DNA of 22,618 bases from a virus: the IMG/VR virus record IMGVR_UViG_3300021181_000043, positions 1 through 22,618 of that record. One strand, 5' to 3'. A program made the translations under genes and the position numbers. Within the stretch, counting starts at the first letter, position 1, and each line of letters starts with the position of its first letter. Positions 3,338-18,751 of this stretch are shown in pieces. The notes under the pieces were generated by a model. The model searched no databases, was not told where the DNA came from, and saw only the letters and a program-made list of their open reading frames with translations.

Positions 3338-5827
3338 TCAGAACTTATGCCTCCGTGCGCCTTTCCAAGCGACAATCTTATCGCCGACGTGCTCATTCAG
3401 GCCAAAGTCGCCGGGACCGAATTCAAACTTAGGCTCAAGCGATACTCCGATTGCATCGCCGAATTTAGCCGTCAATTCACCGATGCGCCACTTGAACCGA
3501 AGCTTGCGGCCCTTACCGGCGAATATCTCTTCCAGCATCCCGAGCTTGTCGAACTCTTCAAATACGTACAACGGGCGAGCGTTGTCGTTAATTTTCTTGC
3601 ACAATTCAGCGACTTGGGTGAGGAATTCAGTCTTGGTAAACGGCGTTGATATGTCCAAATCCTCGAATAGATAACCGTTCTCAATTATCATTCGGGCAAT
3701 CTTGCGCGGCTGGCTCAAATTGTGGAGAACGATGTCGGGTTCGCGCGACGATGAATAACGGATATCCTCGATCAGGTGTCGATTCACCGCCATCGACATG
3801 AACATTTGCATGTAGTGTTCCACGACAGTGGGCCGCTTTAGAAAAGTCGTGAAGTCATCGAAAAATGGCTTGTGCGTGATCGCCCAATCGCGGAAAGCAA
3901 TCTGGCTAAGGCCCATAAATTCGGGGGTGTAAGCCTTGGTGACGAATAGCGCGCGATCCGTTACATTCTCCTCGCTAATTCGCGGGTTCATGTCGTTCGA
4001 TGCAAACATCAAGCGGGCGTAAATGTGATAATCCCGCGCGTCGATCCCCTTTAATTCGCCGTGAGTTCTGGTGTTGCGAATCAGCAACTTGATTTCGTTG
4101 ACTGCATCCCGGCTCTTGAATCGCACTTCATCGGCGAATACAAGCATCTTACCGATAAACGGGGAGACGCTGAACCGTTCGCCGATGGATTTGCCGCTCA
4201 CCATTCCATATAGATTACCAAATAGAGCGCTACAAAATACGTTTCCCATAAAAGATTTTCCAACGCCCTGGCCCCCCACAACTACCCAAGCGATCTGCTG
4301 CTTGTCCCCGGGATGTTGAATCGTCCAAGCCAGCCACTGTTTTATCCACTCAGCCTGTTCCTTGCGGTCGCATGTGAGCCAGCCCAGAACTCTATCAAGC
4401 CGCTCTTCGCATTGCTTCATGAGGAGCAGATCGATAATGGCGGGCGGCTTATGGTTCCATCCTCGCCACGTGTTGAACACTAAGTGAGCGTCGTTGCCCT
4501 CAAACTCGTCCGGAACTACACCTTGAGAGCGCGACAATCTGAATATCTCGCCTGGGTCAATCATTGGAAACAGGTCGGCCTCGTGAACTGTCACTCGCAT
4601 CTTGCTCATCTCGAATGACTTGAACGCTTCGCGAGGCTTGCCCGCTATCATGATTGTGTCGGGCTTGTGGAACCGATAAAGATCCTCGGCATCGAATTCA
4701 AATTTGCCGACTGCGGTCTTAAATCCGATTCGGTCAATGTAACGCCCATCGTCTTTGTTATAGACGTATTGCTCGACCAGTTGCATCAGGACGTTGGTAT
4801 CAGTGCCCGGAATGCAAACGTTCCGCAGCGCTTGTACTATCTCCTCCCCCAGGAGCTTTCGCATCGCTGGCCAGCCGGGAATCTTGGCGTCCGGATTTCG
4901 GCTTAACTTGCTGCGCGCATCCTTGTAGACGCGTTTGCGCATAAACGCTTCTTCGTCCCCCGTTGCGTCGCAGATCAATTGAAGCAGCGATTCAGCGATA
5001 TCATCGGTGTCAATCGGACAGCGAACCTCCTGAGACAGCTGCTCGCTGTTATTCATGGCGTAGCTTTCATCGACTACGCGAGCGAGCCATCCGTTGAATT
5101 GGAGGGCGGTTTGCTGTCGGGTTCCGGCGACCCATTGAGGCTTGATGAGGTAGAGGATGGTGCCGAAAGCGATTGCTCGAATGAGCCAATCAAAATTAAC
5201 GCTTCTTGGAGTTGTCTGCGTAAGCTCATTAAGAGACTTAGCGACGCTTCCTTGTCCGTTCCACCATACCGAAATATCAGCTCGACTTCCCTCAACATAG
5301 ATAGAGCCAGGAACAACAGTCTGCTTTGCATCTGCGGATTGATTGTCCCCAGATCGAATTTCAGTATAGAACTTTTGATTCTTAATTCGTACTGGCTTCG
5401 GCTCAAATCGCTTGAAGTCTTCGAACGAGCGCGCTTCCTCTTCCGGGAGTTGGACGAGGAGGTGACACGGCGCTCCGACACTCCGTCTACCAAATGCCAA
5501 TCGGCAATCGACGCCTACGTGTTGCATGGCTTGGTGGATGCACTTGTTGTAGTCCGAATCGTCACCGTCAATGTCGATATCAACCCAGCCTTGCTGCAGG
5601 TTGAATCCGACGTTATTCCACTTGAATAGCTCATTATCAATCCAATCCTGCAAGTTGGTGTCGAGATACTTACTCGCCGACCAGTTGTCATTGACTGGAA
5701 TCTTGCTCGTCGAGCGGAGGTAGACAGCCCCCACCTTGACTATTTCACGATTTACTGAGGTTGTTATCGCCCTTTGGGTATTGACAGCGGACCATTCGTC
5801 GGCTGATAATAGGGCAGGTGGTTCCAT
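3338..5827 (-). CDS. Primase-polymerase / SF3-type replicative helicase
   Basis: This 829-aa replication protein should synthesise primers and unwind the phage replication fork. The N-terminal half looks like an archaeo-eukaryotic primase (prim-pol) domain: WVDIDIDGDD at 81-90 gives the catalytic D.D motif, GRRSVGAPCH at 113-122 the second motif, and QTVVPGS near 169-175 the third. A middle region of about 300 residues links to the helicase. There the Walker A motif is GGQGVGKS (518-525), the Walker B region is MLVFADEV (561-568), the sensor motif is LMFASND (606-612), and R625 in TDRAL is a candidate arginine finger. This arrangement fits DUF5906-type phage primase-helicases. AAGGA lies about 7 nt before the ATG. 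It is alone downstream of promoter P3, behind a long structured leader that can hide its ribosome binding site. No separate DNA polymerase is seen in the window. Confidence 0.93.
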   Translation of the reverse strand: MEPPALLSADEWSAVNTQRAITTSVNREIVKVGAVYLRSTSKIPVNDNWSASKYLDTNLQDWIDNELFKWNNVGFNLQQGWVDIDIDGDDSDYNKCIHQAMQHVGVDCRLAFGRRSVGAPCHLLVQLPEEEARSFEDFKRFEPKPVRIKNQKFYTEIRSGDNQSADAKQTVVPGSIYVEGSRADISVWWNGQGSVAKSLNELTQTTPRSVNFDWLIRAIAFGTILYLIKPQWVAGTRQQTALQFNGWLARVVDESYAMNNSEQLSQEVRCPIDTDDIAESLLQLICDATGDEEAFMRKRVYKDARSKLSRNPDAKIPGWPAMRKLLGEEIVQALRNVCIPGTDTNVLMQLVEQYVYNKDDGRYIDRIGFKTAVGKFEFDAEDLYRFHKPDTIMIAGKPREAFKSFEMSKMRVTVHEADLFPMIDPGEIFRLSRSQGVVPDEFEGNDAHLVFNTWRGWNHKPPAIIDLLLMKQCEERLDRVLGWLTCDRKEQAEWIKQWLAWTIQHPGDKQQIAWVVVGGQGVGKSFMGNVFCSALFGNLYGMVSGKSIGERFSVSPFIGKMLVFADEVRFKSRDAVNEIKLLIRNTRTHGELKGIDARDYHIYARLMFASNDMNPRISEENVTDRALFVTKAYTPEFMGLSQIAFRDWAITHKPFFDDFTTFLKRPTVVEHYMQMFMSMAVNRHLIEDIRYSSSREPDIVLHNLSQPRKIARMIIENGYLFEDLDISTPFTKTEFLTQVAELCKKINDNARPLYVFEEFDKLGMLEEIFAGKGRKLRFKWRIGELTAKFGDAIGVSLEPKFEFGPGDFGLNEHVGDKIVAWKGARRHKF

Positions 5828-5830
5828 TTT

Positions 5831-5917
5831 TGTGTCCTTGGGCCGCCCTTGTAGAGGCGGACCGGGGAACCCCGTCGGGTTGTGACTCCCCTGCCCGCCT
5901 CAAGCTCCAAGGACACA
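5831..5917 (-). promoter_or_regulatory. Structured 5' leader of the primase-helicase mRNA
   Basis: The arms 5831-5841 and 5907-5917 are perfect 11-nt complements (TGTGTCCTTGG and CCAAGGACACA). The start-proximal arm holds the AAGGA ribosome binding site. Nested inside are GAGGCGG/CCGCCTC (5854-5860 with 5895-5901), GGGG/CCCC (5864-5867 with 5888-5891) and AACCC/GGGTT (5868-5872 with 5877-5881). In the minus-strand transcript this makes a long hairpin that would block translation initiation, suggesting a translational switch or autoregulation. The sequence is directly visible; the regulatory role is inferred. Confidence 0.65.
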
Positions 5918-5941
5918 GAGCACGCCTCACGGCGCAGGACC

Positions 5942-5970
5942 ATCTTAGCACACCCGCGTGCGCCTGTCAA
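5942..5970 (-). promoter_or_regulatory. Conserved phage promoter P3
   Basis: TTGACA (5965-5970), the 17-bp spacer GGCGCACGCGGGTGTGC and the -10 box TAAGAT (5942-5947), minus strand, with extended -10 TGC. It gives a leader of about 108 nt before the primase-helicase. A 12-bp palindrome lies 14 bp upstream of its -35. Confidence 0.9.
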
Positions 5971-5980
5971 GTCTACCTTC

Positions 5981-6157
5981 TTACGTTCTAGAACGCATCT
6001 CCTCCAGGATCAGCTTCAAATCGACGTCGGTGAAGAACGTCATCAAGTAAGCTATCAATTCTATGTCAGCCAACTTTAACCTCATTTGTTGCCGCATGAT
6101 CTCAGCAGCCAGCAAATGCCTCGGCTCAACTGGCTTCTTGGGGGTTCGATAATGCAT
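5981..6157 (-). CDS. Small helical hypothetical protein (58 aa)
   Basis: The frame reads MHYRTPKKPVEPRHLLAAE and ends LKLILEEMRSRT. After a basic, Pro-containing start the rest looks like two amphipathic helices (EIMRQQMRLKLADIELIAYL and the C-terminal segment). ATG 6155-6157 is preceded by AGAGGA 6 nt upstream. The gene overlaps the 3' end of the winged-helix gene by 32 nt in another frame, so it is the last member of that operon. Promoter P3 follows directly. I recognise no family. The good ribosome binding site, fully open frame and operon position support it as real. Confidence 0.7.
   Translation of the reverse strand: MHYRTPKKPVEPRHLLAAEIMRQQMRLKLADIELIAYLMTFFTDVDLKLILEEMRSRT
5984..5995. 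repeat. 12-bp perfect palindrome upstream of P3
   Basis: CGTTCTAGAACG is its own reverse complement. It lies 14 bp beyond the -35 box of P3 and overlaps the last codons of the 58-aa gene. The 10-bp core GTTCTAGAAC recurs at 11582-11591. It could be an operator for a dimeric regulator, but this is weakly supported. Confidence 0.35.
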
Positions 6158-18482: not shown

Positions 18483-18751
18483 GTATCCCTGATCCGCCTC
18501 ATAAACCGGATATTGAGCCTATCCGCGAGCGCGCTGAGCTAGCGAAGCAACTGCTTGAAAACAAAGCGTTTCAACACTCTATTCTTGAGCTTAGGAAACG
18601 ATGGTTCCAGGAACTCCTAGAGAACGGTGGTGGGGACTTGACAGGCGCGCGGCTGTGTGCTAGAATTGTCGCCCTAGAAGGCCTTGCTACTGAGTTAGCA
18701 ATCCTCATCAATGATTATAAGATGGCCTTAAAGAATGCCCGAGGGAATTGA
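18479..18751 (+). CDS. Hypothetical protein (90 aa) carrying promoter P12
   Basis: This 90-aa, mostly helical protein (PIRERAELAKQLLENKAFQH, ILELRKRWFQELLENGGGD, IVALEGLATELAILINDYKM) starts with an ATGA overlap with portal. The 3' end overlaps the scaffold gene by 17 nt. Its codons for DLTGARLCARI also form promoter P12, so the DNA carries both messages. Small helical proteins at this position between portal and scaffold are frequent in P22/SU10-like head clusters, but I cannot assign a function. Confidence 0.75.
   Translation: MSIPDPPHKPDIEPIRERAELAKQLLENKAFQHSILELRKRWFQELLENGGGDLTGARLCARIVALEGLATELAILINDYKMALKNARGN
18638..18666 (+). promoter_or_regulatory. Conserved phage promoter P12, inside a coding region
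   Basis: TTGACA (18638-18643), the 17-bp spacer GGCGCGCGGCTGTGTGC and the -10 box TAGAAT (18661-18666), extended -10 TGC. It lies within the 90-aa gene, 69 nt before the scaffold start. It should boost scaffold and capsid transcription over the portal and terminase genes. Confidence 0.85.

Follow-up and report, generated by a model that had tools for sequence, protein, structure and literature searches.

A conserved leader that can mask the ribosome-binding site of a phage primase-polymerase mRNA, a candidate RNA switch

Feedback that acts through RNA to control phage replication genes is best known from T4-like phages. Protein-binding hairpins of the HIV TAR type combine a bulge, a 4-bp helix and a 6-nt loop. 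The gene for the DNA polymerase of phages T4 and RB69, gene 43, carries an autogenous translational operator for which protein binding is proven, and T4 gene 32, which also encodes a replication protein and has a structured 5' leader, is translationally repressed (PMC3014915). In translational riboswitches with a platform that sequesters the Shine-Dalgarno sequence (SD), alternative pairings expose or mask the SD. In the leaders of hok/sok, aapA3 and the MS2 maturation gene, successive folds during transcription may differ in SD exposure (PMC6733600). Here we describe a primase mRNA leader that has likenesses to each of these systems. As in gene 43, where control acts on translation (PMC3014915), a hairpin with a conserved loop lies about 40 nt before the start codon of a gene for a replication enzyme; as in gene 32, a replication protein is preceded by a structured 5' leader; and as in the riboswitches and the hok/sok-like leaders, competing folds would decide whether the SD is accessible.

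The DNA under study, referred to as the window, is a viral stretch of 22,618 nt (IMG/VR record IMGVR_UViG_3300021181_000043). On its minus strand it encodes a primase-polymerase/helicase of 829 aa (3338..5827, ATG at 5827; DUF5906, PHROG DNA primase) that is 46% identical to the DNA primase-polymerase (QIG66078.1) of Ochrobactrum phage vB_OspP_OH (OH). The promoter TTGACA-17-TAAGAT, with a TG preceding the -10 hexamer, is located at 5970..5942 (minus), and the same promoter type is found ahead of the leaders of relatives. From the promoter position the 5' end of the mRNA was placed near 5935, which gives a leader of 108 nt up to the ATG (5828..5935, minus). This leader is the whole RNA element, and homologous leaders occur in ~30 related phages. 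It had been described as the longest among twelve promoters. This holds for the clear cases, since most other promoters of the primase type in the window have leaders of 17-50 nt, but those at 18638 (+) and 10172 (-) show longer apparent distances with uncertain start assignments. The promoter-like copy TTGACAGGCGCGCGGCTGTGTGCTAGAAT at 18638-18666 (+), which resembles the primase promoter, lies within the 3' part of the open frame preceding the 18735 gene.

Some further features were observed around the primase gene. An open frame of 58 aa (MHYRTPKKPVEPRHLL...YLMTFFTDVDLKLILEEMRSRT, 5981..6157, minus) ends shortly before the primase promoter, and a similar small protein (MYRTPKKPTEPR...YLMAYFTNVDLKLILESM) is encoded at the corresponding place in the relative L136; the frame is possibly a conserved small gene that was missed. 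At the end of this upstream frame, just ahead of the primase promoter, the palindrome GCGTTCTAGAACG(T) (5982-5995) could be a repressor operator; it is kept in the relative L005. The gene that comes after the primase ends just ahead of a strong hairpin, GUGGGGGAGGG...CCCUCCCCCAU (2768-2797, minus), with a trailing UUUCUU; this is a likely terminator of the early region.

Folding of the window leader yielded a minimum free energy of -64.4 kcal/mol, compared to -49.4 ± 3.7 kcal/mol in dinucleotide shuffles (z -4.0), and none of 200 shuffles matched its stability. The outer stem is formed by an 11-bp perfect complement between the 5' arm, or anti-SD, UGUGUCCUUGG (5917..5907, minus) and the SD arm CCAAGGACACA (5841..5831, minus), which includes the SD AAGGA at 5835-5839. 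In the computed ensemble the unpaired probability of the SD is 0.00. Within the outer stem, the fold contains a 9-bp helix and a 4-bp GCUU helix, and further in a GGGG/CCCC helix and the apical helices. The original prediction had described an 11-nt complement covering AAGGA and further nested stems, among them a 7-bp GAGGCGG/CCGCCUC that is included in the 9-bp helix; this structural observation is confirmed. Upstream of the arm, the hairpin GCGCC-GUGA-GGCGU with a GNRA-type loop (5922..5935, minus) has the counterpart ACGCC-GCGA-GGCGU in the relative L137 and is variable across the family. Opening by temperature, which had been suggested as one way to leave the masked state, is unlikely given the stability of the leader. 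An RNA thermometer would have a marginally stable SD helix that melts near growth temperature, which does not fit the G+C-rich 11-bp outer stem and the low free energy.

The central part of the leader is a core hairpin that recurs in the relatives as a long stem, a 5'-side bulge (mostly A-rich, 4-6 nt), a 4-bp helix and a 6-nt loop, starting 42-67 nt upstream of the start codon. In the window the core as matched by covariance model R1 spans 5858..5896 (minus; 30.6 bits, E 2.3e-4, with the window among the sequences used to build R1). An alignment of 30 cores places the 5'-side bulge AGUCAC at 5882..5887 (minus), and the apical helix and hexaloop AACC-CGACGG-GGUU occupy 5868..5881 (minus). The hexaloop is CGACGG in the window, OH and others and (C/U/A)GGCC(A/G), abbreviated NGGCCR, in the remaining relatives. 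A covarying 4-bp apical helix with a CGACGG or NGGCCR hexaloop defines the family, and the window has both features.

Covariation in the homologues, the lack of which would have spoken against the original prediction, is extensive. All 112 cells of the 4-bp apical helix are paired in 28 sequences (112/112), with 43 double changes, compared to 60% in shuffles; none of 500 shuffles reached the observed covariation. In a gap-free subset (n = 9), pairing across the whole 12-bp core reaches 99% and there are 25 double changes. G-U pairs are present in the core helices. The lower stem aligns less well (68% of cells in the model-fitted alignment, 31 matches) because the bulge length varies. In its conservation the central hairpin looks like a recognition site, and it is a putative binding site. 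Several other functions of the loop were considered and discarded: a pseudoknot between hexaloop and upstream hairpin, judged by eye, loses its complementarity across the relatives; CGACGG loops are not self-complementary, as a kissing dimer via the GGCC loop would require; and the loop is without the GGA of CsrA-type control. In one subgroup (L256, L253, L238, L245 and L252) the C-rich anti-SD is located in the loop of an upstream hairpin, e.g. CUUGCAC-CACCCCCGU-GUGCAAG, and its pairing with G-runs would therefore form a pseudoknot.

Relatives were reached via capsid and portal searches, followed by primase alignments. The closest relatives of the window are almost identical to it. Related primases were found from 71% down to ~45% identity, including that of OH, and most of them share the layout of promoter, leader, central hairpin and SD. 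OH is an isolate that infects Ochrobactrum sp. POC9. Among primases at 31-33% identity (L139-L147) no recognisable element was found, and no related primase turned up when the collection of bacterial and archaeal genomes was scanned with patterns. The pattern GTCCTTG..AGCT..GGCGGG was discarded, as its 63 viral stretches were mainly chance matches. The leader of L005 (81% primase identity) differs by one change in 108 nt, but this similarity proves nothing alone, because it lies inside a block of ~95% identity (window 4850-5940; flanks 60-80%) that covers the leader together with the initial third of the primase. The block runs on into the coding region and is a probable recent recombination; the conservation in L005 was hence dropped as evidence.

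Model R1 matched 27 of 36 records, each genome only once and in every case within the primase leader; the records used to build R1 match by construction, so that for them the genome scan adds only the absence of extra copies. R1 had no match in 46 capsid relatives without this primase or with a distant one. In a held-out test, neither the window clade nor OH contributed sequences to the model, R3. This model recovered the window-clade members L137 (E 0.007) and L138 (E 0.004) and ranked the OH leader first in its 8.5-kb region (E 0.017). On the core of the window itself, R3 gave E ~1 and rank three within the window, and a model from GGCC-loop members alone missed this core. The ties of the window to the family are mainly its clade relatives with an identical apical 14-mer, the position and the primase homology. 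As judged from sequence, the window leader is a diverged family member.

Mapped onto a primase tree, the leader goes along with the primase and was lost at least twice. Five leaderless relatives (L231, L232, L233, L235 and L242) nest within leader-bearing clades; in these the promoter abuts the start codon and a structured leader is absent. They are apparently natural deletions of the putative switch, which would therefore be useful but dispensable.

The SD differs among leaders, with AAGGA, AGGGA and GGGGA among its versions, and its changes are matched by changes in the upstream arm. In 27 non-redundant leaders the own arm pairs with the SD segment at a mean of -14.0 kcal/mol, compared to -10.4 kcal/mol for swapped arms (p ~1e-5). 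A proximal segment located between core and SD is a second partner of this arm, at -14.3 kcal/mol for own and -10.1 kcal/mol for swapped arms (p ~1e-5, n = 27), and the mean energies of the two pairings are thus nearly equal. Both duplexes draw mostly on one set of arm nucleotides, with an overlap of 0.71 compared to 0.52 for shuffled proximal segments. When the arms are shuffled instead and members are treated as independent, the combined p is ~1e-16 for the proximal and ~1e-17 for the SD pairing; the sequences being related, all these p-values serve as guides. Stem boundaries, and the SD position in some leaders, were assigned manually. Kinship makes swapped arms more alike, and the contrast between own and swapped arms should therefore be conservative. 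OH-like leaders such as L215 and L270 repeat 3' words that do not resemble an SD (ACCACAG, CUCUCAC), and the similarity of the two segments is therefore not a by-product of shared SD resemblance. Three leaders without a canonical loop (L228, L244 and L268), which were excluded from the analysis, carry both complementarities with varying support.

For the window alone the SD pairing is strong (p 0.005), while the pairing with the proximal SD-mimic CAAGGGC (5845..5851, minus) is present at p 0.46, not better than chance. Folds of the growing window transcript have the proximal pairing at lengths of 95-100 nt; once 105 nt are reached, the SD pairing is formed. The computed preferred state varies by phage; it is closed in the window and open in OH and several others. 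The off state that had been predicted for this mRNA holds in part: complementarity between SD and anti-SD is kept family-wide with co-changing arms, but the proximal pairing equals or wins in most relatives. Opening by a protein or ligand, and an autoregulatory control of replication onset, are candidate functions only. The original prediction did not include the two-state arrangement or the conserved core with bulge and hexaloop. These comparisons give good support to a conserved leader that masks the SD of the primase mRNA, and the dual complementarity suggests a two-state translational switch.

From the computed structure and its covariation, from its occurrence in single copy before the primase gene and from the two complementarities of the arm we infer an exchange of pairings in vivo, a change in translation and the nature of the trigger. 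Our main reading, to which we assign a probability of about 0.6, is that the leader is a cis-acting RNA in which two mutually exclusive arm pairings set the translation of the primase-polymerase, and that a phage protein biases the choice. Pairing of the 5' arm with the SD segment would block ribosome entry (closed), and pairing with the proximal mimic would free the SD (open). The phage protein would bind the central hairpin with its 5' bulge, 4 bp and hexaloop and thereby bias the choice. Most simply, the binder would be the primase-polymerase itself, acting in negative feedback by analogy with T4 gp43 and gp32; this is the simplest proposal because the element occurs only before the primase gene. 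As for the trigger, our leading guess is accordingly a phage protein, which may be the primase.

The core could also bind a metabolite, e.g. a nucleotide, and in this way select between both pairings. A conserved core joined to a two-state expression platform is indeed the build of translational riboswitches, but there is no match to an Rfam riboswitch, the core is one small hairpin of ~35 nt with two loop versions, and the element precedes a single phage gene and no metabolic genes. We consider such a small-molecule riboswitch unlikely. Control could do without any ligand if the nascent leader formed the proximal pairing, allowed early translation and later closed over the SD. The shift in the growing-transcript folds of the window is in line with this, and there is precedent for metastable leaders that mask the SD, e.g. 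that of aapA3 (PMC6733600). Purely kinetic control would, however, not need a strictly conserved bulge and hexaloop, and in many relatives the proximal state is more stable, so that closing would not follow; it is an improbable explanation of the element.

Inverted repeats close to replication genes are often origins or operators, and on this ground the hairpin of a replication origin, or a palindrome bound by a repressor, might be expected beside the primase gene. The element, however, lies without exception between promoter and start codon, on the strand that is transcribed, its SD and arm co-change, its core helices contain G-U pairs, and two competing 3' partners are ill-suited to a DNA cruciform, which makes a role at the DNA level very unlikely. 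Structured RNA immediately downstream of a promoter might instead act on transcription or mRNA life, as an attenuator, an antitermination site like put of HK022 or a stability hairpin. Against this, no U-tract follows the stem or core in the window and no terminator is called there, the co-change of SD and anti-SD exceeds that of swapped arms, and the element is found on the primase gene only; this possibility, too, has very little to recommend it. The translational switch biased by a phage protein remains our preferred reading. As ~30 related phages keep the fold with different letters, the leader is very likely a genuine RNA switch, not catalogued before, that controls a key enzyme of replication. 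More tentatively, and on balance doubtfully, it may represent a new class of phage switch in the primase-polymerase mRNAs of one lineage, in which a protein-recognised bulge-4bp-hexaloop would move a strand between the SD and an encoded mimic, coupling primase supply to replication demand.

In a search of the window with Rfam 15 nothing reached the gathering score, and the leader and its relatives gave only weak sub-threshold matches to unrelated families. The genome paper of phage OH does not mention promoters or leader structure, and no report of such a primase leader was found in the open-access literature. The primase-leader RNA family thus appears to be new, whereas SD-masking structured leaders, possibly autogenous, are of a known kind. 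The T4 gene 43 hairpin has no switching arm that pairs with the SD, its gene encodes a B-family polymerase, and the loop UAAC/CAAC of the T4/RB69 operator is not matched by the CGACGG or NGGCCR of the primase leader. T4 gene 32 differs by a pseudoknot and an unstructured A+U-rich binding tract without an SD-mimic switch, while the window leader is G+C-rich. Translational riboswitches are set apart by the lack of an Rfam class match and by the small single-hairpin core, and the leaders of hok/sok, aapA3 and the MS2 maturation gene are without the conserved bulge-hexaloop core. To HIV TAR there is an analogy in shape only, with a different sequence and no known relation. The core is possibly a new RNA-protein recognition module. 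The putative two-state SD/mimic switch comes with ~30 natural variants, and the leader losses offer built-in comparisons. Conserved, single-copy, covarying and also present in the isolated phage OH, the primase leader provides a second testable system beside the T4-like phages.
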